From a virus, in IMG/VR virus record IMGVR_UViG_3300027733_000062, positions 1 to 60,139 of that record: a stretch of 60,139 bases of DNA, one strand, 5' to 3'. Position 1 is the first letter of the stretch. Each line of letters begins with the position of its first letter. Position numbers and translations under genes: made by a program. Of the stretch, positions 11,758 to 36,820 are shown piece after piece. The notes beneath the pieces were generated by a model. The model saw only the letters and a list, made by a program, of their open reading frames with translations. It did no database searches and was not told where the DNA came from.

Positions 11758-12060
11758 TTAACAATTCCATTTTCTTAGTGCTTTATTAATTCTGCTATCT
11801 GGATCCCTTGCGGTTTTAGCAGATGTAAGTTTTGCTTTCATTCCGGACATTCTGGAACAAAATGATTTTCTACGATTTGCAGATTTAGAACCTGGCTTCA
11901 ACTTAGATGGTTTAGTTGTAACTGCCATTGAAAGTTTAGAACCTGGATTCTCTCTGCGATATGATTCAATACCTTTACGGTTTAAACCACCGGCTTCGCT
12001 TTTGCCTTCTTTGCGAGTCCATGCTGGGGACTCTGCCATGAATTCTTTTAGTCTTTTCAT
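11758..12060 (-). CDS. DUF6321-like basic protein
   Basis: A 100-residue very basic protein. SPAWTRKEGKSEAGGLNRKG followed by SYRRENPGSKL, VTTKPSKLKPGSKSANRRKS and FCSRMSGMKAK matches the DUF6321 pattern common in aquatic phages. It is probably nucleic-acid-binding given its charge. Its start overlaps the stop of the nucleotidyltransferase-kinase gene by ATGA. Family name is from memory; molecular role unknown. Confidence 0.75.
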   Translation of the reverse strand: MKRLKEFMAESPAWTRKEGKSEAGGLNRKGIESYRRENPGSKLSMAVTTKPSKLKPGSKSANRRKSFCSRMSGMKAKLTSAKTARDPDSRINKALRKWNC

Positions 12061-14336
12061 AGTGCGTAATTTCTTTTTCTGAACGATAAAAGGTCTATGC
12101 CTTTCTTCTTTAATTCATCTTCTTTTTGGTCACCGATAGAAGCGGTAGTTTCGTCACCTTGCATTTCAGTAACAGAAATCTTCCGCTTCTTAATCTTCTC
12201 GCCCATATCACGACCAATGGATTCTCCGCCAGCTGCCATAGACATACCAGGTTCAATACCCTTATCAATCGACTCTTTTACTTTACTTTCTTTCTTGGTG
12301 CGGATTTGGTTGAGGGTGATTTTGGTTTTGACGGGACTGTTTTCGAGGTCACTACCGGTTTGGTATTGGTAGTCGGCTTCGGAGATACTACTGGTTCCGG
12401 TGCTACTACTGGTGTTGGTTCTTCCGCTTTCTTGAAAAAACTTTTGATTAACTTTAACATCTTCATTCTCCTTGATTTTAATTACATACCCCTTGCCTTG
12501 CTTATAGACTACACCACCATTTATGTGGGCTTCTTTAGCAGCAGAACGGCGAAGCATAAATGTTCTTACTTTGCCGTGTGTATCCTTCAATAAACTCTTA
12601 TGATTTATTTCATGTGATTCTTTATTTAAATGTTTCTCTAAACGGTCAATAGAGCCAGACATATTTTCTTTACCTTGTTTTTCAGCTTCTTTGCGTTTAG
12701 CCTCAATCTCATTGTGTTTCTTTTCTCTCTCAGCTGCAGCAGCACGGAACTTATCAAGTGCTGATTCTAACAAAGGATTAGCAAATTCGTTTTCAAATTC
12801 TTCGTTGACTTTCTTAGCAACTGGTTTTGTTTGCAATGGAGTTACCTTTGGTTCATCAGGTTTAACTTGTTGTAATTTATCATGGACAGAACGGAATGTA
12901 ACTTTACCATCTTTACCATAACGACCAAAACCATAATATTGTAATCCCATCTTACGAGCTTCATCAGCTGCACCACTATTAGGATGTGGCATAGAATCAA
13001 CTTTGGTGTTGACAGGCAATTTATCACTCTTTTCTAATTCTTGGCCAATCCATTCTTTTGCTTGTGGTGCTTTAGGTGGAGTTTTAATAAACTTCTGAAC
13101 ACCTTTATAGATATTCAACATTTCTTCTTTCTTAGCTTGCACAATTTCTGGTTTGGCACTTCTTAAATCTTCAGAGTTATCAAACTCAACATACTTGTCA
13201 CCAAATAGTTTTGCTAAGTCTGCTCTTGAATCTTGTACCGATTGCCATTTCTGTTTACGGATGGTTTCAGGTACACTTCTACCACCTCTTTGACCTCTTT
13301 CAACATTTCGTGAAGCAGATACTTCATCACGAGTATTAACCATAATCATGGCAGTATCGTAACCAAGTTCTTCTAAACGACTTTTAATTTTTTTAATCTT
13401 TTCAGCATCATCACCAGTACCGTTGATGATAACACCATTACGACCATGTAGTGCCAATCTTTGGCGTAACTCGGTCATGTTCTTGGCCTTACCACGCTCA
13501 ACATCTCTTGCAACTTTTTCAGAAGCAGGCATGGTCTTATTAAGGCCTTTTTTGTCCATCAAAAACTCTAATGCTTTATCAGAGTTAATCTCGGTCATGC
13601 CGTGGCCAGCAAGTGTGTTATCTAAAACATAATCTTTACCAGAACCAGGACCACCTGCTAAGAATACTGCCTTAAAAATGCCTTTGTCATGCACACCTTC
13701 AGTTAACAATTCTTCAAAGAGTTCATCTACACTTTCTTTAAGTCCCATACCTTTACGAACATCGTGCATTAATTCTTTTGCATGGTGTTCAGGTACATGG
13801 CCAGGAATACCTTTCTTAAATTCTTTAAAGTTACTTGTTGAAGCATGACCTCTCATTTTGGAGGCTGACATTCCTTCTGTGCCTTCAGCATCAGGATCTC
13901 TTTCACCAGAAGAATGAACAGTAATCTTTTTAAAATTGAATAATGCACCTTCGTGTTTTCCATTATACTGAGCCAACTTTTTCTTATATTCGTCTGTGCG
14001 GTCAGAACCAGCAACCATGTGCAAATGCGTTACACCTTGTTTGTGTAATTTAGCAGCATGATGTAGGAAAGTTGGATGTTCCGAATCTGAAGTGGACAGA
14101 TTGGTGTTTGGGAAGAAACGCTTTGCGTGTTTCAGTTTGTCTTTAGCGGAGAGAGGATTCTTTTTAGCATCCTGAGAATGAGATAATACCACATGATGTG
14201 AAGCTTTGTGTTCAGCAGCAACCTCTTTGACCTTATCGACCAATTTGGCATGACCAGTCGTTGGAGGGTTCATCCTTCCAAAGGCCATGACGGCGTGCTT
14301 CTCTGTTGCTTCTAGTATAAAATCTCTAAATTTCAT
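12057..14336 (-). CDS. Nucleotidylyltransferase and P-loop kinase fusion
   Basis: A 759-residue protein. Residues 1-200 form a nucleotidylyltransferase-like domain. GRMNPPTTGHAKLV gives the (H/T)xGH signature near 26-29, and GTEGMSASKMR near 152-162 is equivalent to the ISSTxxR motif. Residues about 219-420 are a P-loop kinase domain with GGPGSGKD at 228-235 and NxERGQRGGRSVPE. The C-terminal 330 residues are low-complexity and contain an out-of-frame ORF (12278-12460). The order resembles NadR (NMN adenylyltransferase plus ribosylnicotinamide kinase), but substrate is unknown. A perfect TATAAATA lies 40 nt upstream. Confidence 0.78.
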   Translation of the reverse strand: MKFRDFILEATEKHAVMAFGRMNPPTTGHAKLVDKVKEVAAEHKASHHVVLSHSQDAKKNPLSAKDKLKHAKRFFPNTNLSTSDSEHPTFLHHAAKLHKQGVTHLHMVAGSDRTDEYKKKLAQYNGKHEGALFNFKKITVHSSGERDPDAEGTEGMSASKMRGHASTSNFKEFKKGIPGHVPEHHAKELMHDVRKGMGLKESVDELFEELLTEGVHDKGIFKAVFLAGGPGSGKDYVLDNTLAGHGMTEINSDKALEFLMDKKGLNKTMPASEKVARDVERGKAKNMTELRQRLALHGRNGVIINGTGDDAEKIKKIKSRLEELGYDTAMIMVNTRDEVSASRNVERGQRGGRSVPETIRKQKWQSVQDSRADLAKLFGDKYVEFDNSEDLRSAKPEIVQAKKEEMLNIYKGVQKFIKTPPKAPQAKEWIGQELEKSDKLPVNTKVDSMPHPNSGAADEARKMGLQYYGFGRYGKDGKVTFRSVHDKLQQVKPDEPKVTPLQTKPVAKKVNEEFENEFANPLLESALDKFRAAAAEREKKHNEIEAKRKEAEKQGKENMSGSIDRLEKHLNKESHEINHKSLLKDTHGKVRTFMLRRSAAKEAHINGGVVYKQGKGYVIKIKENEDVKVNQKFFQESGRTNTSSSTGTSSISEADYQYQTGSDLENSPVKTKITLNQIRTKKESKVKESIDKGIEPGMSMAAGGESIGRDMGEKIKKRKISVTEMQGDETTASIGDQKEDELKKKGIDLLSFRKRNYAL
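12278..12460 (-). CDS. Candidate nested gene encoding a Pro/Lys-rich peptide
   Basis: A 60-residue frame lying entirely inside the nucleotidyltransferase-kinase gene in another frame. Its ATG at 12460 is preceded by AAGGAG (12468-12473) with ideal 7-nt spacing. The product begins MLKLIKSFFKKAEEP and continues with Pro/Val/Lys-rich sequence (PTPVVAPEPVVSPKP) ending KSAPRKKVK. The host protein is low-complexity here, so both frames could be tolerated. The RBS could also be a chance product of Lys-Glu codons. Real but unproven is my best reading. Confidence 0.35.
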   Translation of the reverse strand: MLKLIKSFFKKAEEPTPVVAPEPVVSPKPTTNTKPVVTSKTVPSKPKSPSTKSAPRKKVK

Positions 14337-14388: not shown

Positions 14389-15168
14389 TTAGGTTCTATA
14401 TGTATCAGCAGATGTCTTGGAACTAGACCTTTTCTTAATAAGTTCAAGTATATCGGGATTGTTTGCTTGTTCTCCATAGGGGGCAAACATGGCTCTATCG
14501 TGTTTCTCTGCTTCTTGACGAGCTTCTGAAACATAGTAGATATTCAATGACTTGCGATAGACGCCATCAGGACATTGGAGTTCTGTTGGCAGACCATGCC
14601 ATGAATTGTCTGCGGTATCAAATAGAACCGCACTATTAAATTTATTGAATACTTTGGTTACACACTCTTTTGGAAGATTCTTTTCTTCATTATGTGACCA
14701 GAATTCTAAACCACCATTCCATTCTTCTTGCCATTCTGGTGTCATGTAGATGATGATATTGATTCGTCTTTCTTTACCTAGTTTTGGATGAATTGAATAG
14801 TCTTTATGCATATTCAATTTACCACCACGAGCAGTCATATGCCAACCGCCACCATGTAGTCCATAATCAGCTTCTAAATTATTAATACCAGTAATTTTAC
14901 GGACTTTGTCCACAAACTCTGGTGTATTCATCAACGAAAAGGCCTTGTATGTTTCTTTAGGAAACAAATCCCAATTAGGAGTCAATTTCTTGTTCTCAAT
15001 TGGACTCTTATATACAGACCAAATGATTGGGTCATTAAAATCAGGAAATTCAGAAGATAATTTCAATGCTGTTTCATCATCAAAGAAATTGTCAATCACC
15101 ACATGGCGAAACGGTTTGCCATCATTATACTCTTTATTCAGTTTTTCGTAATCAAATTCATTAATCAT
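14389..15168 (-). CDS. 2-oxoglutarate/Fe(II) oxygenase of the sugar operon
   Basis: A 259-residue double-stranded beta-helix oxygenase of the prolyl-hydroxylase type. The iron ligands are likely H140 and D142 in NMHKDYSIHP and the histidine in DNSWHGLP, with the 2OG-binding arginine in YRKSLNIYY. N-terminal PFRHVVIDNFFDDETA is typical of phage members. It is the last gene of the operon, overlapping the previous gene by ATGA. It could hydroxylate a sugar, a cyclitol or a protein. Homologues also occur in cyanophages and in capsule loci. Confidence 0.85.
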   Translation of the reverse strand: MINEFDYEKLNKEYNDGKPFRHVVIDNFFDDETALKLSSEFPDFNDPIIWSVYKSPIENKKLTPNWDLFPKETYKAFSLMNTPEFVDKVRKITGINNLEADYGLHGGGWHMTARGGKLNMHKDYSIHPKLGKERRINIIIYMTPEWQEEWNGGLEFWSHNEEKNLPKECVTKVFNKFNSAVLFDTADNSWHGLPTELQCPDGVYRKSLNIYYVSEARQEAEKHDRAMFAPYGEQANNPDILELIKKRSSSKTSADTYRT

Positions 15169-15812
15169 GGGTATCTTTTAACTGTAATATCACGGTTCAA
15201 TATGTTATGAATAGAAAACAATCTTTCTATTACAAATGAAAAATATGGAAGAAAATGGCCATTATATGTTTGACCTTCTTTGTATATGTAGTTGCTTAGA
15301 GCTACATCTTCTTCACAAGTTCTTAGACATAGGTCAAGAAAAGACAGGTAATTTTTCCAAAATTTACTATTACCAATGAAATAATTACAACTTCCAAAAT
15401 CTTCTGGTAGATATTTAAATTGCTCAACTGGTGTATCAATACCAATTTTTGGAAATAATCTGTTCGCAAAGTTAATCATGCCTGGATGCCATCTATCACC
15501 TTGCACCCATAAATTTGGATATTCATCAGCTAAATGTTTGAATGGGTCGAAATGATATACATCGTAGCCAGGATTTTCTTGTATCCAATCTCTGAACTGA
15601 TATGGCGGCAATCCTGTTTTATGTAACCATCTCCAAGATAATAAACCCCAATGAGCATCAGAATCTTTATGTTTCTCTAAGAGTTTTCGCCACATAGGCA
15701 ACTCACGCATTTCAGGAGCATCGTTTGCGGTATTATCGTAAGGTATGAATACGGGGTCTAAGTTAGGTAACTGTACCGAATCATAGTATGCTTGATAGAT
15801 TTTAAGATTCAT
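15165..15812 (-). CDS. Glycosyltransferase-like protein, family unclear
   Basis: A 215-residue soluble protein. WGLLSWRWLHKTGLPPYQF, then NPGYDVYHFDPFKHL and FKYLPEDFGSCNYFIGNSKFW are recognisable blocks that I associate with surface-polysaccharide loci. I cannot name a defined family. No clear DxD motif is present. It overlaps both neighbours by ATGA and so belongs to the sugar operon. A glycosyltransferase role is inferred from context. Confidence 0.6.
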   Translation of the reverse strand: MNLKIYQAYYDSVQLPNLDPVFIPYDNTANDAPEMRELPMWRKLLEKHKDSDAHWGLLSWRWLHKTGLPPYQFRDWIQENPGYDVYHFDPFKHLADEYPNLWVQGDRWHPGMINFANRLFPKIGIDTPVEQFKYLPEDFGSCNYFIGNSKFWKNYLSFLDLCLRTCEEDVALSNYIYKEGQTYNGHFLPYFSFVIERLFSIHNILNRDITVKRYP

Positions 15813-16636
15813 CGAACCATATCTTCAATGATAGCCTTCAAATCGTATTTTGGCTCGTACCCAAGCGATTTAAGTTTGTCGCTGAGCATCCACATACTAC
15901 GAACTTGTACCGTGCGATGGAACTGCGGAATTTCAATTGGATTTAATTTGCCTTCACCGCCAATTAACTCTTTGGCATACTCAATCATATCTTTAAACAA
16001 CATAGGTTTGCCATTGCCCACATTATAGATGGTATTAACTTCGCCTTTTTCCACGATGGTCTTAATTGCCGTAGCAACATCGTTAACATGGATGTAGTCA
16101 CGGAATAGATTCCCACCATCATACACATTCACATCACGGCCTGCCTTCAATTCATTAATCATATGTTGAAGTGCGTTCTTTTGTGGTGAGGCTTTCTTAT
16201 CACCACTACCTGCCACATTGGCAAGACGGAGAATACGATATTTGATGCCAAAGGTTTCACAATAAGAAATTAGTAGTTGCTCGGCACAGCGTTTAGTGAT
16301 TGAATAAAATCCATTTGGATAACAATTTGATTCTTCCGTTGCAGGCATTTCAGTTTCACCATAAACAAACCATGAACTAATAAAATTGAATGTCAAATTT
16401 CTATCTTTACATTGTCTTAACACCTGCATAAGAGTTGTTAAATTGGTGTCAATGTCAATAAGAGGGTCTGTTTTAACATTGTAGTTACTAACAGTTGAAA
16501 TCAAATAAATGATATCACAACCTTCTACTGTATAATCACGGCGTGGAGTTACAATACAGTTTTCAATTTGTTTAACCAATTCAGAACCAACAAAACCTGA
16601 ACCACCAAATATTTGAAATTTAGATGGACTTGGCAT
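15809..16636 (-). CDS. NAD(P)-dependent sugar epimerase or 4-ketoreductase (extended SDR)
   Basis: A 275-residue extended SDR. The nucleotide-binding loop is FGGSGFVGSEL near residues 10-20, a serine lies in FISSWFVYGE and the catalytic YxxxK is YSITKRCAE. FRDYIHVNDVA is a family hallmark. It lies directly after the RfbH-type 3-dehydrase, overlapping it by 17 nt. In enteric O-antigen loci that place is taken by CDP-abequose or paratose synthases, which reduce the 4-keto group. A 4-ketoreductase role in a dideoxysugar route is therefore plausible. Confidence 0.78.
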   Translation of the reverse strand: MPSPSKFQIFGGSGFVGSELVKQIENCIVTPRRDYTVEGCDIIYLISTVSNYNVKTDPLIDIDTNLTTLMQVLRQCKDRNLTFNFISSWFVYGETEMPATEESNCYPNGFYSITKRCAEQLLISYCETFGIKYRILRLANVAGSGDKKASPQKNALQHMINELKAGRDVNVYDGGNLFRDYIHVNDVATAIKTIVEKGEVNTIYNVGNGKPMLFKDMIEYAKELIGGEGKLNPIEIPQFHRTVQVRSMWMLSDKLKSLGYEPKYDLKAIIEDMVR

Positions 16637-17906
16637 CTTTAATCACCTTTTCAATATATTTAAACACAGCATCATTCCAAAATGGAGGGCAGCCCAAGAT
16701 AAAGACATGAGATAGTGCTTTGTTTGCTAATGGATATTTACTAGAATCATCTAAGTGATTGTAACCTGGATGTAACAAGATGTTACCAGCAAAATAGTTT
16801 CGTGTCTGAATTTTATTGGCTTCAAAGTGTGCAACCAACTTCTCTTTAATCTCTTGTGTTTCACAGATAATTGGAACACCGAACCAAGATGGGTCTGATT
16901 GCTCTAGTTTATCAGCAACACGGACATTTAGATTGTCCGTCAATAATTTAGCCAATCTTAGTTTATGTTCTCTGCGTTTCTGGTCAATGTAATCAACCTT
17001 TTCTAACTGAGCAATACCAATTGCACCTTGCATATCAAGTGGTTTCAAATTGTAACCCATGTTTGCAAAGATATATTTGTGGTCAATAATGCCATCATAG
17101 CCTGGCAACCATCTGTCGAATCGGTTACCGCAAGTGCCACATGGAAGTTGATTGTTAGAACCAATGCAGTAACAATCACGACCCCACCAACTGAATGACC
17201 TAACAGTATCAATCAACAAGCTATCATTAGATGATACCATGCCACCTTCGCCTGTTGAGATGTGGTGTGCGGGATAGAATGAAGTTGACCAGCAGTAATA
17301 CAAATCTGTCAACAGTTTACCATTCCATTTTGTACCTAGTGAATCACAATTATCACCAATCAATACTAAATTGTTTCTGTAACAGATATCATGGATTATA
17401 TCCATGTCAGGCGGATTGGCCATCACAGGAGATACAATAATTGCTTTAGTCTTTGAAGTAATCTTCGCTTCAATCTTATTAACATCAAAATTTAATGTAT
17501 CAAACTCAATATCAACAAATACTGGTTTAAGATTGTTCTGAACCAATGGTGCAATTGTGGTTGGAAAACCAACAGGTGATACGATGACTTCATCGCCATC
17601 TTCCCATTTCAAATGTTTCTTAACACCTGCAATCATCACCAAGTTGGCAGATGAACCAGAATTGACCATGTGTGAGGCTTTGACATTGTATTTCTTGGAG
17701 AATTTAATCTGAAACTTCTCAACATTCTCACCTGCTGAAACCCATTTGCCTGTAAGGAATGCTTTAAGAGAAAGTTCCATCTCTCTTTCGTCCCACAATT
17801 GGCCAGAATACATTACATAATCTTCGCCAGGTTTGAAGTTGTCGTAATTCTGTAAATATTTTGGTCTAGCAAGTTTAGCTAGTTCTTGTATTTTTTCGTC
17901 AATCAT
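16620..17906 (-). CDS. RfbH/E1-type 3-dehydrase (PMP and [2Fe-2S] dependent)
   Basis: A 428-residue DegT/DnrJ/EryC1/StrS fold protein. The PLP-lysine site reads SFYPAHHISTGEGG, so histidine (H214) replaces lysine. This is the hallmark of CDP-6-deoxy-4-hexulose-3-dehydrase E1/RfbH, which uses PMP and removes the C3 hydroxyl. Cysteines C187, C245, C247 and C256 give CX57CX1CX8C, nearly the unusual E1 [2Fe-2S] motif CX57CX1CX7C, and C259 is close by. It is thus a deoxygenase, not a transaminase. The partner reductase E3 is not in the window. TAATG overlap with the upstream gene. Confidence 0.88.
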   Translation of the reverse strand: MIDEKIQELAKLARPKYLQNYDNFKPGEDYVMYSGQLWDEREMELSLKAFLTGKWVSAGENVEKFQIKFSKKYNVKASHMVNSGSSANLVMIAGVKKHLKWEDGDEVIVSPVGFPTTIAPLVQNNLKPVFVDIEFDTLNFDVNKIEAKITSKTKAIIVSPVMANPPDMDIIHDICYRNNLVLIGDNCDSLGTKWNGKLLTDLYYCWSTSFYPAHHISTGEGGMVSSNDSLLIDTVRSFSWWGRDCYCIGSNNQLPCGTCGNRFDRWLPGYDGIIDHKYIFANMGYNLKPLDMQGAIGIAQLEKVDYIDQKRREHKLRLAKLLTDNLNVRVADKLEQSDPSWFGVPIICETQEIKEKLVAHFEANKIQTRNYFAGNILLHPGYNHLDDSSKYPLANKALSHVFILGCPPFWNDAVFKYIEKVIKDAKSI

Positions 17907-18619
17907 TAATATCTTTCTGTCTGGCCATTTCCTGCCAAAACTCCTTCACAATATAAATTTTCAAATTCAACAGTTAAATTTTTGTCTGTGTTACCAAAAT
18001 GTGCGTGTTCTGTATCTACACCAAATTCATTAACTGTTCGGTATATTTCTGGTAGAATATGCAAATAGTTATCAATCAATGATACACAGAATGAATACAT
18101 CCTAGTTATGTATAGATGGTTACAATCAGATTCCACTTGTTTATATGGTGGCAACCAAGATGGTATTCTTTTCTTAAACACATACTTACCATATAGATTA
18201 TCATATACCTTAGGGTCATAACCCTCAAGCATATTGGTTCTAGCAGATAGCTTAAACACTCTACGAACACCAGCCATCATCTTCTGTAATTCAGGATGTT
18301 GTTTAATAATACCTAGTGTCTTAAACAATAAAGTAACTTCTGCTTGTGATTTGAGGCCTGCATTTGCAAGCGTCATTAAATCTTCATCACCAAAGAAACT
18401 GATACTTCTATCACAATATTGACTTACTGTAACCATTGTTGCTTCATCAACCATTTTGGACGAAGCATCTACCCATAGGATAATGGCATCAGGTGCGGCC
18501 TTGCGTAATGATTGCAGGCCTTCTATTGTTTGTTTTAATCTCGTTTCATCATCAATAACACCAATGCTCGTTCTCAAAGCAGATGTTACAATGAATAAGT
18601 CGGTACTTGGTATAATCAT
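17906..18619 (-). CDS. Putative glycosyltransferase-like protein
   Basis: A 237-residue protein. It starts TDLFIVTSALRTSIGVI, which resembles GT-A type openings, and has IILWVDASSKM and VFKLSARTNMLEGYD. The VFKLSxR...YD block resembles phage and capsule-locus proteins with FKxSGRY motifs. No strict DxD is visible. ATGA overlap upstream and TAATG downstream place it firmly in the operon. Assigned as glycosyltransferase-like on pattern and context only. Confidence 0.55.
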   Translation of the reverse strand: MIIPSTDLFIVTSALRTSIGVIDDETRLKQTIEGLQSLRKAAPDAIILWVDASSKMVDEATMVTVSQYCDRSISFFGDEDLMTLANAGLKSQAEVTLLFKTLGIIKQHPELQKMMAGVRRVFKLSARTNMLEGYDPKVYDNLYGKYVFKKRIPSWLPPYKQVESDCNHLYITRMYSFCVSLIDNYLHILPEIYRTVNEFGVDTEHAHFGNTDKNLTVEFENLYCEGVLAGNGQTERY

Positions 18620-19293
18620 TTATGCCACTCTGTATCAGGAAACATTTTAATAGTCTTGTATTCAATATTGAATTGGCTATTATACACGAAATCAATTACT
18701 TTCACAAGTTCCATTGGTGATATTGCCTTACTCACATCACCACACGGGTAAGGTATATCTCTACTCCATAATGGCGTATCAATACCGCCTGGATGGATAC
18801 TTGTTACTTTAATGCCTCTTGGCCGTAACTCTTGACCAAGAACACCAGCAAATCCTGTAAGACCATGTTTAGAGGAACAATATGCTGATTGATTTTCTAG
18901 TTCTTCAAGGCCTGCCACCGAATTAATAAAGAATATACGACTACCTTTTTCCATATTCTGTAATGCAAACTTAGTTACATACATGGCACCTTTAAGATTA
19001 ATATCAATCATATCATCAATCTCATCAATACTGGTTTGTGAAAATGGTTTCATCTTAAACACAGCTGCATTATTAACTAGAATATCAATGTTCTTATTAC
19101 CAATCTGTTCAAACACTTCATTCAAGTGGTATGGATTGCCAACATCAACTTGAAAGTGTTTGTAGTTTGCATAATCAAATAAAGATTCACCACGAGCAAG
19201 ACCAATTACATTCCAACCTTTCTCAATGTAATCATATGCGATTGTTGCACCAACACCACTTGTGGTGCCAGTAATCAAAATGGTCTTATTCAT
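18616..19293 (-). CDS. Short-chain dehydrogenase/reductase
   Basis: A 225-residue classical SDR starting MNKTILITGTTSGVGATIA. The Rossmann TGxxxGxG is at residues 8-15, the NNAA motif is in DILVNNAAVF, the catalytic serine is in FINSVAG and the YxxxK is YCSSKHGLTGF. I chose the ATG at 19293 because the upstream alternative is TTG. The chosen start overlaps the cyclase gene by 8 nt. It directly follows the valiolone-synthase-like cyclase, so reduction of a cyclitol ketone is the obvious hypothesis. Confidence 0.86.
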   Translation of the reverse strand: MNKTILITGTTSGVGATIAYDYIEKGWNVIGLARGESLFDYANYKHFQVDVGNPYHLNEVFEQIGNKNIDILVNNAAVFKMKPFSQTSIDEIDDMIDINLKGAMYVTKFALQNMEKGSRIFFINSVAGLEELENQSAYCSSKHGLTGFAGVLGQELRPRGIKVTSIHPGGIDTPLWSRDIPYPCGDVSKAISPMELVKVIDFVYNSQFNIEYKTIKMFPDTEWHK

Positions 19294-20428
19294 ATTTAAC
19301 TTCTTCAAATATATCTGAAGCTTTCTTTATCTCATCATCAGTTACATCATTTAATATTTTATAGTTACCAATGCCAACAGGAACAGGTAAGTATTGATTA
19401 CCATTTCTATGTTTCATTGTATCAGATAATGACTTTTTAAGCAAATCAAAATTACAGAAATCTTTATGGAATACAGGCAATTTTAAACTGTGTGCTGTCT
19501 TAAATATTCTTTGTAGTGTTTCAGTATCAATATAACCACGGACATTAGCCAAGCAAGAACTCAACAGGCAATCTAATACAACCGCCTCACCATGTTGTAA
19601 TGTAGCAACATTCTGCATTTCAATAATAGGACTAAACGAATGGCCAAAGTCAACACATCGGTCTAGTTTTCTTTCCCATAGGTTTGGTGCCAATTCTTCA
19701 ATCATACCTGTAATGGCAGAATTGATTACACGAACTGGTACCGCACCAAATTGAAACTTTTCGGTGATTAATTGTTCTGCACTTGTTTCTAACAACTCAA
19801 ACAATTCTTTATCTTTGATTACTGCAAGTTTAAATATCTCTGCAATACCATTAACAATGTTTCTTTCATCTTGTGTAGCAATAAACTTCTTGTCTAGTAA
19901 TGTGGCAATTGGTGGATAATATGCACCGATACGATTTCTACGACCAAAGTGGTTAGCTGCAACTTTAACACCAACTGAAGCATCTACAATAGCCAACAAT
20001 GTAGTTGGCACTTTAATGTAAGGAATGCCTCTGCGATAAATTGAACAACAGAAACCAACCAAGTCTAGTAGAACACCACCACCAATAACAATGATTGCTT
20101 CTCTACGCAAAACACCAACTTCTTCAAAGAACCTTAAAATTTGGTCTGTGTGTGGCCAATCTTTCTTTTCTTCTGTGGCATCTATGATAAACAACTTCAA
20201 TTCTATTTGAAATGTTTTAAAGTAATCTTCTAATTGTTGACCATATAGTTTATATACAGTCTGGTCTATAACAACCACTCTACGATTGGACTCACTAAAA
20301 CTCAACAGGTCGTGATTACTCCAATTGAATACATCACTAGAATACTTTAGTGTAAACTCAATTGGTAGTTCTGCCTTGACAGACCATGTGCGTTTATAAT
20401 TGTCGAATTTAGTTAATACATTTTCCAT
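19286..20428 (-). CDS. Sugar phosphate cyclase, 2-epi-5-epi-valiolone synthase (EEVS)-like
   Basis: A 380-residue sugar phosphate cyclase of the AroB superfamily. It has the NAD loop GGGVLLDLVGF (116-126), YRRGIPYIKVPTTLLAIVDA (131-150) and NHFGRRNRIGAYYPP. The likely Zn ligands are E197, H263 and H279. Unlike AroB it has the EEVS-style blocks PNLWERKLDRCVDFGHSFSP and HRNGNQYLPVPVGIG. EEVS turns sedoheptulose 7-phosphate into a C7 cyclitol, the entry step to acarbose, validamycin and gadusol. Next to a kinase, a nucleotidyltransferase and an SDR, a host-independent cyclitol route is suggested. Subfamily call is from pattern memory. Confidence 0.8.
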   Translation of the reverse strand: MENVLTKFDNYKRTWSVKAELPIEFTLKYSSDVFNWSNHDLLSFSESNRRVVVIDQTVYKLYGQQLEDYFKTFQIELKLFIIDATEEKKDWPHTDQILRFFEEVGVLRREAIIVIGGGVLLDLVGFCCSIYRRGIPYIKVPTTLLAIVDASVGVKVAANHFGRRNRIGAYYPPIATLLDKKFIATQDERNIVNGIAEIFKLAVIKDKELFELLETSAEQLITEKFQFGAVPVRVINSAITGMIEELAPNLWERKLDRCVDFGHSFSPIIEMQNVATLQHGEAVVLDCLLSSCLANVRGYIDTETLQRIFKTAHSLKLPVFHKDFCNFDLLKKSLSDTMKHRNGNQYLPVPVGIGNYKILNDVTDDEIKKASDIFEEVKYE

Positions 20429-21390
20429 TATTTGAAAGCTCTACTTAATAGGTGGCAAGCATGAACATAGAAGAACATCGCCTTCTCCATCTCACCAGCT
20501 GCACACTTGAATGGTAACATACGAATGAATTGTGTTGCCTCTAATACATCAACAGTTTTTCTATCCGCTGGGTCAATTCTATCTTCAAATCGTTTATTGA
20601 ATACGATAAAATTATTTGGTATCTCACCATGATATCCAACAGATGGGCCATCTACTGTTACTTCATTATCATTTATGTGACCATAATAACTTCTTGAACA
20701 TTGTAACACTTGTGAATAATCTAAGAGGCGAGAATCAATACAACTTTCTTCATATGGGTCAATAAAAACTACTCTATCATCATCAAAAGAATACATCATA
20801 TTCTCAAGCGTTGGATTACCATGAATGGTTTCTTCTGTGGTGAAATTAAGTTCATCAAAGAAGTTTTTTAGTTCTGGTAAAAAGTTTTGAATGCCATGTG
20901 TGATACGACCATTGTATTCAAAAGAATCCAATAAACCAGATTCATAGAAATTGTAAAACTTCTGATATTTAAAGGCATCGGATAGTTTCTGTATAACTTC
21001 TTCTTTGAAATACAATGCACCTGCACCATTAACTGGCAAATACATTTTACGATGGTGATTATCAAAAGACCGCCAGACAGCCTCATTAATCTGTTCAATT
21101 TGTGGAACAGTTAAAGTATCTTCTGAAAGGATAGTTTTAATATCTCTATAACCTTTGAGATATTCAATATCAAAGTATGCACCATTATCTGTGGTGCCAA
21201 CTTTTAAAACTTTAGGGTATAAACCTGTTCCAGCAAATCGTTGTAGTTTCTTTAACTGAGAATACCAACGAACATAACCATACTCTCGGTTATCTTTTGT
21301 GCTAATAGCTTTACGAATGAATTTGTTATTACCATCTTCATACAAAGATGTGCTACTTAAAGAACCACCTTTTAACTTAGTAATCTTCAT
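20428..21390 (-). CDS. APH/choline-kinase-type small-molecule kinase
   Basis: A 320-residue kinase of the aminoglycoside phosphotransferase fold. The catalytic loop is HGNPTLENMM (D replaced by N after HG) and the metal-binding motif is VVFIDPYEES. The N-terminal lobe has FIRKAIST with the likely ATP lysine. Such kinases sit in capsule and LPS loci and phosphorylate sugars. Placed between the cyclase and the nucleotidyltransferase, it could phosphorylate a cyclitol or sugar before activation. The HGD to HGN change could affect catalysis or substrate. ATGA and TAATG overlaps on both sides. Confidence 0.78.
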   Translation of the reverse strand: MKITKLKGGSLSSTSLYEDGNNKFIRKAISTKDNREYGYVRWYSQLKKLQRFAGTGLYPKVLKVGTTDNGAYFDIEYLKGYRDIKTILSEDTLTVPQIEQINEAVWRSFDNHHRKMYLPVNGAGALYFKEEVIQKLSDAFKYQKFYNFYESGLLDSFEYNGRITHGIQNFLPELKNFFDELNFTTEETIHGNPTLENMMYSFDDDRVVFIDPYEESCIDSRLLDYSQVLQCSRSYYGHINDNEVTVDGPSVGYHGEIPNNFIVFNKRFEDRIDPADRKTVDVLEATQFIRMLPFKCAAGEMEKAMFFYVHACHLLSRAFK

Positions 21391-22109
21391 CTTAACTTTA
21401 AACTCTTTTTAGCCAATTCAAGTCCATATTCTTGTGGACTACCAAGAACTATTGTTTCATATTCATTGTTCAATTCATTTAGACCAACAAACTTATTATT
21501 CTTTATCATGTAATCTAACACATTAGCAATATACATTTCTTTACCAGTAAAGCCTTGTGATAGTGCCTCATACATTTGTTGATACAATTCAGCACTATAA
21601 AAACCATACAAACCAGAACTTGCGAATGGTGAGATAGCAGACTTTTCAACAATCTCAGTCACAATACCATCTTTTGACCTAACATAAGAGTATTTTGGAT
21701 TGTTGGCAACAAACACATCAACATAACCATCAGACATTACAGATTCAATATCTTTGAAATTTCTACCAACCAATAGTGTATCAGCATTATGAACAAAGAA
21801 TGGTTGAAATCTGTCTTTCAATAATGAAGCACCAATGTATGCGGTGTGTGCTTGACCACTTGTATCACCAATGTAATGAATGTTATCTTTAGTGAGACCA
21901 AGTGGTTCAATAGTCTTTACCAAATCAGGCATAAAATAAGCATCACGCTTATTAGCCAACAACAAGACCTCATCAAACTTACCTAATTGTTTAAGAATTT
22001 CATGGATGATTGTTTCTTCACCCCAAGGTAATAGATACTTTGGTATATCAAAACCCACATCATGGAATCTGGTGTTCAAACCAGCCATACAAACTATTAA
22101 CGCAGCCAT
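21387..22109 (-). CDS. Sugar-1-phosphate nucleotidylyltransferase
   Basis: A 240-residue GT-A-fold nucleotidyltransferase. The start MAALIVCMAGLNTRF and PKYLLPWGEETIIHE correspond to the GxGTRxxPxTxxxPK signature of the RmlA/GlmU/GCD1 type. FFVHNADTLL holds the metal aspartate. It would activate a sugar- or cyclitol-1-phosphate to its NDP form. It is shorter than RmlA and lacks a hexapeptide-repeat C-terminus. The nucleotide used is not evident. It overlaps the upstream gene by 13 nt and the kinase by ATGA. Confidence 0.84.
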   Translation of the reverse strand: MAALIVCMAGLNTRFHDVGFDIPKYLLPWGEETIIHEILKQLGKFDEVLLLANKRDAYFMPDLVKTIEPLGLTKDNIHYIGDTSGQAHTAYIGASLLKDRFQPFFVHNADTLLVGRNFKDIESVMSDGYVDVFVANNPKYSYVRSKDGIVTEIVEKSAISPFASSGLYGFYSAELYQQMYEALSQGFTGKEMYIANVLDYMIKNNKFVGLNELNNEYETIVLGSPQEYGLELAKKSLKLR

Positions 22110-22801
22110 TGCTCAAAGTCCTCACGAATTAAACTGTGCCATGTGCCATTGTAAGCACCAGGTGGAAATGGATGATTGATGTTACAATACACCAAGTTTT
22201 CACCAACAAGGCCTTTTTCTTTCCAATTAGCACTCATCATATCTTCACACATCATCTGTATGCCACTATCATAGAATCTATCTAAGTGTGTGTATGTGTC
22301 AGCATACTTGTCCATGTTTTCTGAAGATGAAAAGGCAAACTGGTCATTACCAAAATCACGATTAGGAACTTGCCTGCAATTTGGAATATACAGTTTACTA
22401 TTATCTAGTTCTGCAAATGGAATCTTAACATTGATTGCAAAGTCATAACGACTACGAATGACCCAATCAAATTTCATATTTTCATTCTGTTCATACACCG
22501 ATTTAAGTGTGTTTGCTACTTTAAGAGCATACAACTGATTCCAAGTGGAACGAGCTGGGTCTTTTACTTTCCAGTTTGGTTGCGGTGGCGGAACATTGGT
22601 GTATTTTGATAGGTCGGTGTTTAATGATTTCTCCATAAACACAACTTCTGGCTTATAAAGGTTTAAATCTTCTGCACCATCTGCTTCCCAAACTTGGCAA
22701 AAAACGGTAACATCGTTACCGTCCAAAATGTTCTTCTTAACAAACTCGTAGCCTTGTTTTACACTACGAGGTTGTCCTGATAAACAGAGTGCTATTTTCA
22801 T
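22097..22801 (-). CDS. Glycosyltransferase-like protein of polysaccharide loci
   Basis: A 234-residue protein starting MKIALCLSGQPRSVKQGYE, an opening I associate with GT-like proteins of capsule loci and marine phages. DWVIRSRYDFAINVKIP has the RxRxD-type core, and FGNDQFAFSSSENMDKYA follows. I chose the ATG at 22801, which makes an ATGA overlap with the dehydratase gene. Likely acts on nucleotide sugars. The exact GT family is unclear. Confidence 0.62.
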   Translation of the reverse strand: MKIALCLSGQPRSVKQGYEFVKKNILDGNDVTVFCQVWEADGAEDLNLYKPEVVFMEKSLNTDLSKYTNVPPPQPNWKVKDPARSTWNQLYALKVANTLKSVYEQNENMKFDWVIRSRYDFAINVKIPFAELDNSKLYIPNCRQVPNRDFGNDQFAFSSSENMDKYADTYTHLDRFYDSGIQMMCEDMMSANWKEKGLVGENLVYCNINHPFPPGAYNGTWHSLIREDFEQWLR

Positions 22802-23826
22802 TTTAGCCACTTATCATTTTCTAATGACCATTGAACCATACCTTTGATTCGTTCACGCAACGAAATCTTTGGTTTCCATCCTAGAGATGCCATATAATCA
22901 CCAGAAAGAGCGTAACGTAAATCGTGGCCAGGTCTGGATGAATGAAAGTCAACCATTTCATATTTGAGTTCCTTATTTTGTGCTTCTGCAATTAGTTTAG
23001 CCAACTCTAAGTTATCTACTTCATCGGGACCAACAATGTTAAACTTAGGAATCTTCGCACCACCAAAATCAGGAATGCGAGCATAATCTTCAGGCAGATT
23101 AAGAATAAACATCAAACCATCTGCAACATCTTTAGCATGAACATAGTGGCGTGAACCTGCCTTTGTTTTGTTTCTGTCTGAATGGATAGTAAGTGTTAAA
23201 CCATCACGAGCATACCGAATGGCCTTAGGAATAAACTTTTCAGGATGTTGGCGTTCACCAAACACATTCATTGTATGAGTAACGATGATTGGCATATTGT
23301 ATGTGTTTTCAAATGCAACACACATTTCTTCACCTGCCGCCTTAGATGCTGAATATGGATTCGTAGCATTGTAGCGGTCTCTTTCTTTGTAGTCAACACC
23401 TTCAGGTGCGGGACCAAATACTTCATCTGTTGAGAAGTAAACAAACTTTTCTAAGTTCTTTAGTGTGCGAGCAAACTGTAACAGATTAACTGTACCAATT
23501 ACATTGTCTTGCACAAACTCCATAGGGAATTCGATTGAGCGGTCAACATGAGAACCAGCTGCAAGGTGCAATACTAACTGACAATCACCAATTAGACCAG
23601 CAGTCTGTGGGTTTACTTCAGCTCGTAAATCATGGAATACAATCTCAACTCGCTTCTTCTGCTCAGGTGAATACTTCTTCATAATATCTTCAAGGCGATT
23701 TAGATTGCCTGAAAAGTCAAGTCGGTCAAGCGATACGATTGTCCAATCTGTATTATCAAGGATTGTTTCAATCAGGTGGTGGGCGATAAAACCTGCACCG
23801 CCTGTAATTAATACTCTTTTAGTCAT
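22798..23826 (-). CDS. NDP-glucose 4,6-dehydratase-like (RmlB type)
   Basis: A 342-residue extended SDR. It has TGGAGFIAHHL (NAD loop), HLAAGSHVDRSI, the dehydratase catalytic triplet in FSTDEVFGP and YSASKAAGEE (YxxxK). RPGHDLRYALSG near the C-terminus is characteristic of RmlB. It makes NDP-4-keto-6-deoxyglucose, the substrate class for the 3-dehydrase at 16620. A GAGG RBS lies 9 nt before the ATG. RmlB versus RfbG specificity (dTDP or CDP) cannot be settled by eye. Confidence 0.88.
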   Translation of the reverse strand: MTKRVLITGGAGFIAHHLIETILDNTDWTIVSLDRLDFSGNLNRLEDIMKKYSPEQKKRVEIVFHDLRAEVNPQTAGLIGDCQLVLHLAAGSHVDRSIEFPMEFVQDNVIGTVNLLQFARTLKNLEKFVYFSTDEVFGPAPEGVDYKERDRYNATNPYSASKAAGEEMCVAFENTYNMPIIVTHTMNVFGERQHPEKFIPKAIRYARDGLTLTIHSDRNKTKAGSRHYVHAKDVADGLMFILNLPEDYARIPDFGGAKIPKFNIVGPDEVDNLELAKLIAEAQNKELKYEMVDFHSSRPGHDLRYALSGDYMASLGWKPKISLRERIKGMVQWSLENDKWLK

Positions 23827-24664
23827 TATATTTTTCCTCTATAACCTTTTTCCATTCTGGTACTCTATCATATTGATGAACAATTGTAAAGGCTTTTCCT
23901 GCTGAAGTTGCAACTTCGCCGTCAACCATAATCGGTGAGGGTTCAAGCAAAAAAGGTTTAAACTGTTCAAGTTTACTTGGATCGGCAGTAGTGCCTAGTT
24001 GGCAAGCCCAACCTTCTTCAGAGGTCATATATCTTGCAACAGATTTATATGGCTCTTGTGAAATCATAAAGTTAAATGTGGACTGGTCTACGATTGGGAT
24101 AGGTCGATTAACAGACATAACGAATATCATCGCACATAAATCTCTCATCGCATCGCCACGACCTGCCAAAACGCCTACATTGTAGATGATATTGTCTTTG
24201 AATCTTTCATGGAAAAAGGGACCAAATGTTTCCATTAAGTTCTGATTGCCCCATGGCTCATCTTTATACTTCATAGATTCGGAAGCAAACATCAACTTAG
24301 CACCTGGCAATTCCATGCCAAGAAACTTAGTAGGGTCTTTTTGGAATACTACATCTTTAACATCGGTTGTAATAACAAACCGATAGTTGTCGTGTGATTG
24401 TAGGTAATTGTAGATGTGAACAAAGCGTTCTACATGGACAGGCAACGATGATTGATATTCATATCGCTGTGCTTGTTCGTTCGGTTTTCCAGGCAAAATA
24501 ACCTGAAAACCAGCTTGAGATAATTTTTCAATGGTTTCATAATCAATGTTAAAGGCGACCATAACTTTCTCGCCTTGAAAACCTGATTTATTGATGGAGT
24601 TAACCCAATACTTCAGTTTACTCCAATCATAATTTGTGGTACATCCAATCACTAAATCTTTCAT
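23819..24664 (-). CDS. Putative glycosyltransferase with DxD-like motif
   Basis: A 281-residue protein starting MKDLVIGCTTNYDWSKLKYW. FVITTDVKDVVFQKDP near residues 98-113 is a DxxD-type GT-A metal site with a following FxxDP, and APGAKLMFASES-like and QSTFNFMIS blocks follow. It resembles glycosyltransferases of cyanophages and capsule loci. It is the first gene of the sugar operon, with GGAA 7 nt before its ATG. It overlaps the dehydratase by 8 nt. Confidence 0.68.
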   Translation of the reverse strand: MKDLVIGCTTNYDWSKLKYWVNSINKSGFQGEKVMVAFNIDYETIEKLSQAGFQVILPGKPNEQAQRYEYQSSLPVHVERFVHIYNYLQSHDNYRFVITTDVKDVVFQKDPTKFLGMELPGAKLMFASESMKYKDEPWGNQNLMETFGPFFHERFKDNIIYNVGVLAGRGDAMRDLCAMIFVMSVNRPIPIVDQSTFNFMISQEPYKSVARYMTSEEGWACQLGTTADPSKLEQFKPFLLEPSPIMVDGEVATSAGKAFTIVHQYDRVPEWKKVIEEKYND

Positions 24665-25045: not shown

Positions 25046-25327
25046 TTATCCTCTTGTAAGATTTAAAATCTTTTGAATCTGTGCTTCGAGAATAGGTTTA
25101 CGATTAGGCCATTTGATGATTGGTTGGTCGGCTGTCTTTAATAGTTTGGTTAAAAACGGCAATACTAACTTCTCAACTTCTTCCAATCTTGCTCTGTATT
25201 CTTCTACTGTATCATCTTTTTCTGCAATAACAGCATTATATTCTTCTTCATCAGTAGCGGTGAATCCAAAATCATCATCACCATACTCTTTCATAATTGC
25301 GGTTAGGTCATATTTAATTTCGGCCAT
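25046..25327 (-). CDS. Conserved-type acidic phage protein
   Basis: A 93-residue protein starting MAEIKYDLTAIMKEYGDDDF. The C-terminal PIIKWPNRKPILEAQIQKIL is a block I recall from conserved hypothetical proteins of T4-like marine phages. I chose the start that gives a TAATG overlap with the ligase-fold gene. Acidic first half and basic end. Function unknown. Confidence 0.74.
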   Translation of the reverse strand: MAEIKYDLTAIMKEYGDDDFGFTATDEEEYNAVIAEKDDTVEEYRARLEEVEKLVLPFLTKLLKTADQPIIKWPNRKPILEAQIQKILNLTRG

Positions 25328-26556
25328 TATTTGTCCCAATTCTTTTGTGCGTTAAAGTTATCATGTGCGAATACAAATCGGTCAATCAATTTCATGGCAT
25401 TACCTTTCAATCTATCTACTGCCACAAATCCCTCTGGTGCAGTAATACGGAAACCATCTTCAGTTTTAATGAATGTTCCAGTAAGTTGTTTTAGATTTTG
25501 TAGTTTACCAACAATCATTAATTTGGCATCAACAATTAGATTCTGTAAATCAAATATCTTTTTCAATTCATTGGCATTACTACGATAGAACCGCATAATT
25601 TCATTCTTCTTTGCAATTCTTTCTTTTTTAGTCTTTTCTAATTTAGCTTCAAGAACTTCTTTGTTTAATTTGGCTTCAATAGTTCTAATCAATTCATTTG
25701 TATGTTGTAATGTATTCTTAATCTTTTCACCAGAACGGACTTTACTGTTATAGAAGGTTTTAATCTGTGTGAGAATGGTGTCATTGGCAGAAATACGATT
25801 CAATGCCATTGGATTAATCTGTTGAAACAATGAACCTGCTTGAGATAGAATACCAGTAAGTTCTTTGGTTTCTGCTTCTGTAAATGTGGCAGTACCAGAA
25901 GCATCAACAAATGAAGCATCACGGAACCAAACATCTTTGGTTGTAGATAACTTACCAATATCAATGTTGAATGAAGCCTTCATATCAGATATGGTTTTAC
26001 CTGTATATGATGTATGAAACACAATACCCATCTGTGCAGCTGTCATTGATTTAGCTAACTTTGAATCAGCAGGAACGGCATACACAATAGTATTTGGTTG
26101 AAAAGTAATATAATCTTCACCATCAATTGTTTGGTCTTTTATATCACCTTTTGCAAACATCATATCGCCTTGCAACACACCTTTGATACCAAGTTTTGGT
26201 AAATAGCGTAATGCAACTTTTAATTTGGCATTAAGACCTTCGCCAGGATGATTCTTGTCAATGTCAGCATCTGTGTAGTTTAACTTAGGTGTTGCATTGA
26301 ATACACCTTTAGTACCAACAAAGAATTTACCATTCTCTGGATTAATACCAGCAAACACCGCAGGTGCACCGTCCCATTTTGTTGTTACATTAACATGAGA
26401 TTGTGAATGACCAGCGAGCATATCTCTGAGTGAACGGAGAAAATTAATTGATTCACGAGCCCCCGCTACACCACGATTCAACATCTCATCTTCGATATGT
26501 TCTAGGTGAAGGTTCTTGCCTTCTTTACTTTCTGTTAAATATTGTGTGAAGTTCAT
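25327..26556 (-). CDS. DUF6267-like protein with nucleotidyltransferase (ligase) motifs
   Basis: A 409-residue protein that starts MNFTQYLTESKEG, four bases past the upstream stop. K60 in TTKWDGAPAVF looks like motif I (KxDG) of covalent nucleotidyltransferases (DNA/RNA ligases, capping enzymes). GKFFVGTKG, then GVLQGDMMF (126-134) and EGFVAVDRLKGNAMKL (375-390) fit motifs III, IIIa/IV and V. A helical coiled region lies between. It matches my memory of DUF6267 in aquatic myophages. An adenylating ligase is therefore predicted, with unknown substrate. Confidence 0.68.
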   Translation of the reverse strand: MNFTQYLTESKEGKNLHLEHIEDEMLNRGVAGARESINFLRSLRDMLAGHSQSHVNVTTKWDGAPAVFAGINPENGKFFVGTKGVFNATPKLNYTDADIDKNHPGEGLNAKLKVALRYLPKLGIKGVLQGDMMFAKGDIKDQTIDGEDYITFQPNTIVYAVPADSKLAKSMTAAQMGIVFHTSYTGKTISDMKASFNIDIGKLSTTKDVWFRDASFVDASGTATFTEAETKELTGILSQAGSLFQQINPMALNRISANDTILTQIKTFYNSKVRSGEKIKNTLQHTNELIRTIEAKLNKEVLEAKLEKTKKERIAKKNEIMRFYRSNANELKKIFDLQNLIVDAKLMIVGKLQNLKQLTGTFIKTEDGFRITAPEGFVAVDRLKGNAMKLIDRFVFAHDNFNAQKNWDK

Positions 26557-26557
26557 T

Positions 26558-27757
26558 TTAGTGTTTAAATTTGTAATCACACATTATGTGTGTAGGGTAT
26601 GTTACACCAGCAGCTTTACTTCTGATATTAAAATTTAATTCATACATTTTTGTTTCTAATTTTATATCAATTCTTTTTGCTGAACCGCCAACTGGATAAT
26701 AAATTGTTAAATCTGAGCTAGTAATTGTTGAAGCTTCAGTTAAAAACTTTTCGGTCATAACAAACAAATGAACATTTTTCCTATCGTCTAAATGGCACAA
26801 ATAATAATTGTGGCCAATAATAGTTTTTAAAAATCCTTGCAATTCTGTTTTTCTTTTACCTGAAATAGAAACAGTTTCAGTATGTTTAGGAGCGGCCGTT
26901 TTCTTAATGACACCAGATTTTTCTTTATATTTAACAAAAACATCTCTAAATCTTTTAGGATCTAAACCAAATAAATCTAAAATTGCTAATCCTGATTCTG
27001 TTGAAAAATTGCCACTTTTAAATTCTGAAGCTGGAAAAGCACCTTCTGGTGGAAAAGTTCCACTACCTAAACCAGAATTAAAAAAAGTAACTGTTGTTCC
27101 AAATTTTGCAGACAAGTCTAAAGTTTCTGCAACATTTCCTCGTTTAATTTTAACTTTCACATCAGCTAAACCTGCACCAATGTCAGTCGTTCTTGCACCA
27201 CCTTTCATTGAACAATAAATTCCTTTAGCATCAAACTTCAAAGGTCTTGGTGTGTTTTCTTTACCAGTAACATCAACAGAAATAACCTTAGCGCCTTTAA
27301 GAACAGTTTTTTCAAACTCTTTCATAAAATTTGGATATAAAAATTTATTGGTGCCTTTAATAAGTTGGTTAAAATCTTTTTCTAAATCATATTCAAAGGC
27401 AGCACCTTTACTAGCACCAGCACCTTTCATAGCAATTAATTTTGCTATGATGTATATTTGAGAACCTGTAAATGAAATCTGACCGGCTGTTGAATTTTTA
27501 GCAACAAATTCATATTTAGCACCATTAAATTTTGAAGATAGGTGTGGTAAAAGTTCATTTACAAGAAAATCTTTTCTTGTTTTTTTTGTATAAGTTTCAT
27601 TAACTCTATTTTTTTCTGGCAAAAATATAATAAATTCTTTACCAACTGCGGACTTTGGTGCAGTAAAGTAACCATTTTTATTTTCTTTTTCACTAATTCC
27701 CAAACTTTTTAAAACTTTCGTTAATGCTATCGCAGTAGCCGTAGTCTTTGTTGCCAT
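26558..27757 (-). CDS. Phage protein of unknown function, possible nuclease fold
   Basis: A 399-residue protein starting MATKTTATAIALTKVLKSLG. A central stretch RTTDIGAGLADVKVKI followed by ETLDLSAKFG could be a PD-(D/E)XK core (acid, then D-x-K and S-x-K), but this is weak. The C-terminus ends HIMCDYKFKH. It directly precedes the ligase-fold gene in a coupled pair, so the two may act together. AGGGG lies about 8 nt before the ATG and GATAAATA lies further upstream. Confidence 0.6.
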   Translation of the reverse strand: MATKTTATAIALTKVLKSLGISEKENKNGYFTAPKSAVGKEFIIFLPEKNRVNETYTKKTRKDFLVNELLPHLSSKFNGAKYEFVAKNSTAGQISFTGSQIYIIAKLIAMKGAGASKGAAFEYDLEKDFNQLIKGTNKFLYPNFMKEFEKTVLKGAKVISVDVTGKENTPRPLKFDAKGIYCSMKGGARTTDIGAGLADVKVKIKRGNVAETLDLSAKFGTTVTFFNSGLGSGTFPPEGAFPASEFKSGNFSTESGLAILDLFGLDPKRFRDVFVKYKEKSGVIKKTAAPKHTETVSISGKRKTELQGFLKTIIGHNYYLCHLDDRKNVHLFVMTEKFLTEASTITSSDLTIYYPVGGSAKRIDIKLETKMYELNFNIRSKAAGVTYPTHIMCDYKFKH

Positions 27758-36603: not shown

Positions 36604-36820
36604 TTACTTTCTCACTTGGATGAAATACTGCTAGTGTTACCCAGCGTTTTGGAAATAACATCTCACGACCACGATAGTCGTTCATGTCAGCGGTTGGGTC
36701 TTGAATAAAACCAACAAGCTCAACCATATTGTCGAACTCACGGAGAAACAAGTCATACTTGTCTGCACGGGGCAATTTGTTGTCAATTGCCAATTTCTTC
36801 GCTACCTCACGAATATTCAT
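36596..36820 (-). CDS. Small conserved-type phage protein
   Basis: A 74-residue protein (MNIREVAKKLAIDNKLPRAD). FDNMVELVGFIQDPTADMND and REMLFPKRWVTLAVFHP follow. It starts in an ATGA overlap with the cytidylyltransferase-like gene. No known function. It is part of the nucleotide-metabolism operon. Confidence 0.68.
   Translation of the reverse strand: MNIREVAKKLAIDNKLPRADKYDLFLREFDNMVELVGFIQDPTADMNDYRGREMLFPKRWVTLAVFHPSEKVNV

Follow-up and report, generated by a model that had tools for sequence, protein, structure and literature searches.

The IMG/VR virus record IMGVR_UViG_3300027733_000062, analyzed here over 60,139 bases (the window), carries 12 open reading frames (ORFs) at positions 14389 to 24664, all on the minus strand and each overlapping its neighbors by 1 to 23 bases. 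That all 12 ORFs overlap in this way points strongly to a single operon with translational coupling. Its core encodes a predicted sedoheptulose 7-phosphate (S7P) cyclase of the 2-epi-5-epi-valiolone synthase (EEVS) type, an APH-fold kinase, a short-chain dehydrogenase/reductase (SDR), and a sugar-1-phosphate nucleotidyltransferase (Table 1). A preliminary description of the sequence had proposed 12 coupled genes at this site, with a valiolone-synthase-like cyclase, an APH-type kinase, a sugar nucleotidyltransferase, and an SDR as a unit, and this gene content was borne out by motif, family, and fold comparisons. A promoter scan stayed at chance level, and a terminator scan barely exceeded it.

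The window is a fragment of a T4-like myovirus. Alongside the operon it encodes a gp43 DNA polymerase, a gp41 replicative helicase, a UvsX-like recombinase, and a gp23 major head protein, as well as SbcC/D-like nuclease subunits, a sliding clamp, a late sigma factor, and a dCMP deaminase; with this gene set, the window belongs to a real phage. The nearest isolates by gp23 (64%) and gp43 (50%) identity are marine Synechococcus and Prochlorococcus phages. No tRNA genes were found in the window, and neither psbA nor transaldolase was found in its large relatives.

Table 1. Genes of the operon, core genes first (aa, amino acids; NDP, nucleoside diphosphate; 2OG, 2-oxoglutarate; PMP, pyridoxamine phosphate; AF2, AlphaFold; pLDDT, AlphaFold confidence score).
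Positions	Strand	Assignment	Basis
19286..20428	-	S7P cyclase, EEVS type, 380 aa	PDB scores, residues, tree
20428..21390	-	APH-fold small-molecule kinase, putative cyclitol 1-kinase, 320 aa	AlphaFold and Foldseek
18616..19308	-	SDR, 230 aa from TTG, putative cyclitol ketone reductase	adh_short E=5e-41
21387..22109	-	Sugar-1-phosphate nucleotidyltransferase-like, putative NDP-cyclitol synthase	NTP_transferase E=2.8e-7; PDB 4evw E=9e-16
17906..18619	-	GT-A fold putative glycosyltransferase, glycogenin-like, conserved	AF2 pLDDT 90.3; Foldseek glycogenin E=9e-8
22097..22810	-	Putative glycosyltransferase, conserved in cassette, VIRSRYD motif	phrog_13607
23819..24664	-	Putative glycosyltransferase, TTDVKD motif	phrog_1579 E=4e-8
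22798..23826	-	NDP-hexose 4,6-dehydratase-like, optional module	dTDP-glucose 4,6-dehydratase PDB matches E=1e-47
16620..17906	-	E1/RfbH-like PMP-[2Fe-2S] 3-dehydratase, optional module	PDB 3bcx E=2e-69, 238 bits
15809..16636	-	Short NDP-sugar epimerase/reductase, optional module	Epimerase E=9e-34; 4zrm E=6e-19
15165..15812	-	Conserved protein, no family match, optional module	Travels with E1 and epimerase
14389..15168	-	2OG-Fe(II) oxygenase-like, optional module	PF13640 E=4e-14; mostly travels with E1 module

The cyclase contains the motifs PNLWE, DFGHSFSP, and HRNGNQYLPVPVGIG that had been quoted for it and matches both domains of the dehydroquinate (DHQ) synthase superfamily (Pfam DHQ_synthase and DHQS_C). 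Among solved structures, ValA, an EEVS (PDB 4P53), is its best relative with 300 bits, ahead of the cyanobacterial desmethyl-4-deoxygadusol synthase (DDGS) 5TPR with 221 and of 3-dehydroquinate synthases (DHQS) with at most 135; annotated bacterial "sedoheptulose 7-phosphate cyclases" are about 37 to 39% identical to it. The window cyclase and all phage relatives aligned carry the EEVS set Asp260, Pro267, and His340, where DDGS reads Ala/Pro/Thr and DHQS reads Asn/His/other. Asp260 and His340 presumably correspond to Asp281 and His360 of ValA, while the Lys of the ValA KN site is replaced by Arg in the phage enzyme. The DHQS residues Arg264, Asn268, and His275 are not matched; the window cyclase has Asp256 (a variable site), Asp260, and Pro267 at these positions. 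This residue test covered two of the 14 fingerprint sites, along with the Pro267 site; that two active-site positions separate EEVS from DDGS is described in PMC4426668. In a maximum-likelihood tree, the phage cyclases form one clade (support 99/100); a split with 100/99 support sets them and the S7P cyclases apart from AroB, so that the grouping with AroB that had been raised as the alternative is not recovered. The tree contains several long reference branches and fixes no branching order among the EEVS, DDGS, and phage clades. For these reasons "EEVS-type S7P cyclase", and not AroB, is a safe assignment of enzyme class by comparison, and 2-epi-5-epi-valiolone is the likely product.

The kinase gene lies directly upstream of the cyclase. 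The window copy falls below the Pfam cut-off; its relatives match the APH and fructosamine kinase families, and one of them (L079) exceeds the cut-offs. The AlphaFold model (pLDDT 92.7) has methylthioribose kinase, the N-acetylhexosamine 1-kinase NahK, and aminoglycoside kinases as nearest folds in Foldseek, with TM-scores of about 0.4 to 0.6, and the modeled protein thus has the protein-kinase-like fold of the APH/fructosamine-kinase-like family. In its catalytic motif, HGNPTLEN, Asn192 replaces the usual catalytic Asp; 75 of 77 copies show this motif and the remaining two were not matched, in a count where some copies are cut by contig ends. A weak profile match also indicates a resemblance of the HGN motif to the loop of the JAK2 kinase domain. 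A kinase profile searched against genomes of two phyla (396 and 291 genomes) yielded two distant bacterial relatives with an HGD motif and, nearby in one gene cluster, a relative of the same nucleotidyltransferase; no cyclase lies beside either within the short stretches seen. The pairing of kinase and nucleotidyltransferase is thus old, and the Asp-to-Asn change is, as sampled, specific to the phage lineage. As to the other two core proteins, the SDR keeps Y143xxxK147 in 15 of 15 sequences and, judging from the starts of its relatives, probably begins at an internal ATG at 19293 rather than at the listed TTG. Distant homologs of the nucleotidyltransferase occur in cyanophages.

How general is this arrangement? 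Scans of IMG/VR returned at least 95 stretches that encode cyclase relatives (54–100% identity), 80 of which were kept as loci, with the neighbors mapped in every locus. The kinase is present upstream in 75 of the 75 loci with room for it (77 in all) and the SDR downstream in 78 of 78 (81 in all), both at most 60 bases from the cyclase. The nucleotidyltransferase occurs in 74 loci and directly adjoins the kinase in 65; the strictly invariant unit is kinase-cyclase-SDR only. Many contigs are near duplicates, and merging cyclases within 3% reduced the 71 complete trios to 42 representatives. In this reduced set, kinase, cyclase, and SDR show strongly correlated divergence (Mantel r 0.74–0.83 versus at most 0.26 in 999 shuffles), to which phage kinship contributes. 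The ratio of nonsynonymous to synonymous substitution rates (dN/dS) of the core genes, 0.04 to 0.29, indicates purifying selection. Together with a gene order kept in dozens of contigs, these values show that the operon is not a chance arrangement.

Moreover, the trio is adjacent across three phage backgrounds, some of which share almost no other window genes, so that the unit, whose search in other phages had been suggested at the outset, turns up in many phages, both related and unrelated. In two loci (L040 and L041), it stands in a different gene context, with a DnaB-like helicase and a PhoH-like gene, and the nucleotidyltransferase is directly adjacent. Beyond the trio, a second phage group (L078–L089) resembles the window only weakly, in glycosyltransferase-, dehydratase-, and nucleotidyltransferase-like genes; the L079 contig encodes baseplate wedge, tail lysozyme, and virion structural genes and is therefore also of phage origin. 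In this group, nucleotidyltransferase and kinase are separated by two proteins, one cupin-like and one RuBisCO-like (PF00016, E=2.5e-43). The latter (L079:7763-9037; also in L078, L081, L083, L084, L087, L088, and L089) resembles the RuBisCO large chain, stands between the cupin-like protein and the kinase, and keeps the Lys of KPK and the KEDE motif, while other catalytic positions appear altered by eye; a RuBisCO-like protein is therefore more probable than a carboxylase. In a phage-isolate collection, no believable cyclase relative was found, nor any match to the kinase or the glycogenin-like gene. Cyclase matches of 25 to 31% in that collection were not counted as precedents; several lie in bacterial-looking records annotated aroB or 3-dehydroquinate synthase. 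One genome-collection scan for a bacterial donor of the cyclase returned only distant AroB-like matches.

The trio is flanked by putative glycosyltransferases. The gene that follows the SDR belongs to no sequence family and was assigned from its predicted fold. The VIRSRYD protein carries the general motif (V/I)(I/V)(R/K)(S/T)R(F/Y)D and has distant relatives in cyanophage polysaccharide regions, and the TTDVKD gene is kept in most relatives of the window lineage. The operon gene of the DegT/aminotransferase family is a relative of E1/RfbH-type 3-dehydratases: the His that replaces the Lys binding pyridoxal phosphate (PLP), in SFYPAHH, and the four-cysteine Fe-S pattern CYC...CGTC are both conserved, and the protein scores under the curated NCBIfam RfbH cut-off (361 versus 423 bits). 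Many loci lack the genes for the 4,6-dehydratase, the E1/RfbH-like protein, the epimerase, the 15165-15812 protein, and the 2OG-Fe(II) oxygenase-like protein, the 4,6-dehydratase being missing from L017–L021, L035, L037, L043, and others. The idea that all 12 genes form one pathway was rejected, as the E1, epimerase, and oxygenase genes are missing from many relatives. What had been described as a 12-gene cyclitol and deoxysugar operon thus stands as an operon, while its conserved unit comprises only about four to six of the 12 genes, with the deoxysugar genes as a module that can be separated from it. In L009–L012, a heptose-nucleotidyltransferase-like gene occupies the position of the window's 4,6-dehydratase; it looks as if sugar modules are swapped around a fixed cyclitol core. 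A heptose-1-phosphate adenylyltransferase-like gene is also present in the window outside the operon (36817-37278), its homolog (L009:88-573) lying within the cyclitol cassette of L009–L012. A second 2OG-Fe(II) oxygenase-like gene, likewise outside the operon, lies at 29507-30070.

Other neighbors of the operon include the ORFs 8174-10087, 11758-12060, 12057-14336, and 25327-26580, with N-termini such as MKFRDFILEA, MKRLKEFMAES, and MNFTQYLTES. These resemble T4 capsid-targeting sequences, which suggests internal head proteins. The 12057-14336 product is a two-domain fusion, of a CTP_transf-like nucleotidyltransferase and a Zeta-toxin/AAA-type kinase, and its gene adjoins the operon in most relatives. 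Further away, 27802-28914 matches Druantia DruA (PF14236, E=1.1e-9); several relatives have this gene too, and in others it has been replaced.

We propose that the operon core provides a compact route from host S7P to a nucleotide-activated C7-cyclitol (carbasugar), which would then be transferred to an acceptor, and we give this reading a probability of roughly 0.58. In this model, the cyclase would convert S7P to 2-epi-5-epi-valiolone or a close epimer, a step well supported by sequence. The SDR would reduce the ketone of this product to a cyclitol, the APH-fold kinase would phosphorylate its C1 hydroxyl, and the nucleotidyltransferase would turn the cyclitol 1-phosphate into an NDP-cyclitol. 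Soluble GT-A-type glycosyltransferases could then pass the cyclitol, alone or with a phage-made deoxyhexose, to the acceptor, the dehydratase, E1, epimerase, and oxygenase genes representing an exchangeable deoxysugar module on the same scaffold. The similarity of the kinase fold to that of the 1-kinase NahK, the GT-A fold of the flanking glycogenin-like protein, and the gene cluster that bacterial relatives of the kinase share with a nucleotidyltransferase relative all support this proposal, as do the class of the cyclase, the constant adjacency of the trio, its correlated divergence, and the purifying selection on it. There is also chemical precedent for a C1-kinase and a nucleotidyltransferase making an NDP-cyclitol, as AcbU adds a phosphate at C1 of a C7-cyclitol and GDP-valienol is the product of AcbR (PMC9200736). 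A ROK-family kinase adjoins the cyclase in three bacterial loci (L090, L091, and L093) and none is present in the phage operon; the phage route would therefore be shorter, skipping the C7 phosphate.

Several points weigh against this route. All 75 phage kinases with the motif read HGN, where the bacterial relatives read HGD, which leaves it uncertain that the kinase is active. Not every locus has the nucleotidyltransferase right beside the kinase, and that of the second phage group is only 25 to 30% identical and may act on another sugar. Finally, transaldolase was not found in the phage records searched, so S7P must come from the host.

In a different account, the cyclase makes a C7-cyclitol that is used free or phosphorylated, e.g., as a small molecule in the infected cell, while the nucleotidyltransferase activates another sugar and the neighboring glycan genes serve ordinary sugars. 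Strict invariance that ends at kinase-cyclase-SDR, the very different nucleotidyltransferase of L078–L089 with its intervening cupin-like and RuBisCO-like proteins, and the uncertainty that the HGN motif brings to the kinase step are all in line with it. We nevertheless regard it as unlikely, given that the window lineage and L040/L041 have the nucleotidyltransferase right next to the trio, that bacterial kinase relatives are likewise linked to such an enzyme, and that putative glycosyltransferases surround the trio.

As to the acceptor of an activated cyclitol, phage DNA had been suggested as a target, and T4 relatives do glucosylate their DNA, with glycosyltransferase-like proteins encoded here as well. 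A hypermodified base carrying the cyclitol, like T4 glucose, is nonetheless highly improbable: seven large records of the window lineage contain no thymidylate-synthase/dCMP-hydroxymethylase family gene, the window encodes a dCMP deaminase, and cyanomyoviruses, to which the nearest isolates belong, show no evidence of base modification according to a review (PMC2984593). None of the 12 operon products is a multi-pass membrane protein, flippase, or polymerase (the cyclase has one hydrophobic stretch, read as part of its dinucleotide-binding core). There is accordingly no sign of lipid-linked export, which slightly favors a cytoplasmic acceptor, for example a virion protein, over host lipopolysaccharide (LPS). 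A host surface glycan is a possible acceptor as well; a role of this kind has been suggested for the P-SSM2 cyanophage LPS clusters (PMC2984593).

Two other roles for the cyclase have very little probability. S7P cyclases, both EEVS and DDGS, begin gadusol and mycosporine pathways (PMC4426668), and phages in sunlit water are exposed to ultraviolet light, so that a sunscreen or protectant could be imagined; yet no MT-Ox, O-methyltransferase, or ATP-grasp gene adjoins the cyclase, unlike in the DDGS-like locus of Nostoc, the DDGS-type Ala and Thr are not present, and the surroundings are rich in glycosyltransferase-like genes. A divergent AroB raising host aromatic amino acid synthesis, a role for which one could cite the generic profile TIGR01357 (217 bits, under its 305 cut-off) and 3-dehydroquinate synthase genes reported in algal viruses (PMC6851583, PMC13431477), is rejected by the tree, residues, and scores given above, and the operon holds no further shikimate gene.

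The proposed carbasugar route can be compared with known systems. With ValA, the phage cyclases share the superfamily branch and the discriminating Asp, His, and Pro; they differ in forming their own well-supported clade and in the Arg at the KN site. The acarbose and validamycin clusters (acb and val; PMC9200736) follow a common logic of cyclase, C1-kinase-like enzyme, nucleotidyltransferase, reductase, and glycosyltransferase. The preliminary description was right to see this core, but the layout differs: acb and val use ROK-type 7-kinases, whereas the phage operon has an APH-fold kinase and no ROK-type 7-kinase or 7-phosphatase, no pseudoglycosyltransferase was recognized in it, and it sits in a phage genome among glycan genes. 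T4-like cyanophages also carry sugar-nucleotide and glycosyltransferase genes in LPS-like clusters (24 genes in P-SSM2; PMC2984593), and distant homologs of the operon nucleotidyltransferase and of one glycosyltransferase occur in cyanophages; phage isolates are without believable relatives of the cyclase, the kinase, or the glycogenin-like protein. The E1/RfbH-like protein resembles the CDP-4-keto-6-deoxyglucose 3-dehydrase in the His for the PLP Lys and in the four-Cys pattern; it differs in scoring under the RfbH cut-off, and no E3 reductase was seen in the operon. In salvage routes, the anomeric kinase AmgK pairs with the nucleotidyltransferase MurU. Routes of the NahK or AmgK-MurU type are thus similar to the phage operon in combining an APH-fold sugar 1-kinase with a nucleotidyltransferase, while the phage kinase differs in being coupled to a cyclitol-making cyclase and an SDR and in its catalytic-loop Asp-to-Asn change.

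Phage sugar-nucleotide cassettes and EEVS-initiated cyclitol pathways are already known kinds. In agreement with the preliminary description, no phage EEVS or C7-cyclitol pathway was found in the open-access literature, subscription papers lying outside the search; within the reach of this search, activated-cyclitol chemistry, as predicted from sequence, would be new for bacterial viruses. More tentatively, a self-contained cassette of kinase, cyclase, and SDR might be common to several phage lineages and yield an activated carbasugar by a route shorter than those of acarbose and validamycin. The phages would use this non-hydrolysable "false sugar" to decorate their virion proteins or the surface of the host, and the kinase would function despite lacking the usual catalytic Asp. 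The cassette would also offer a short route to an NDP-cyclitol and an unusual kinase active site. C7-cyclitol chemistry has so far been associated with crop-protection agents, an antidiabetic drug, and vertebrate gadusol. If the proposal is true, this carbasugar chemistry would be widespread among phages as well, the product probably being incorporated into a glycan. Lacking the ring oxygen, a pseudo-sugar would resist normal glycosidases, which would give a phage a concrete reason to place it on its particle or its host.

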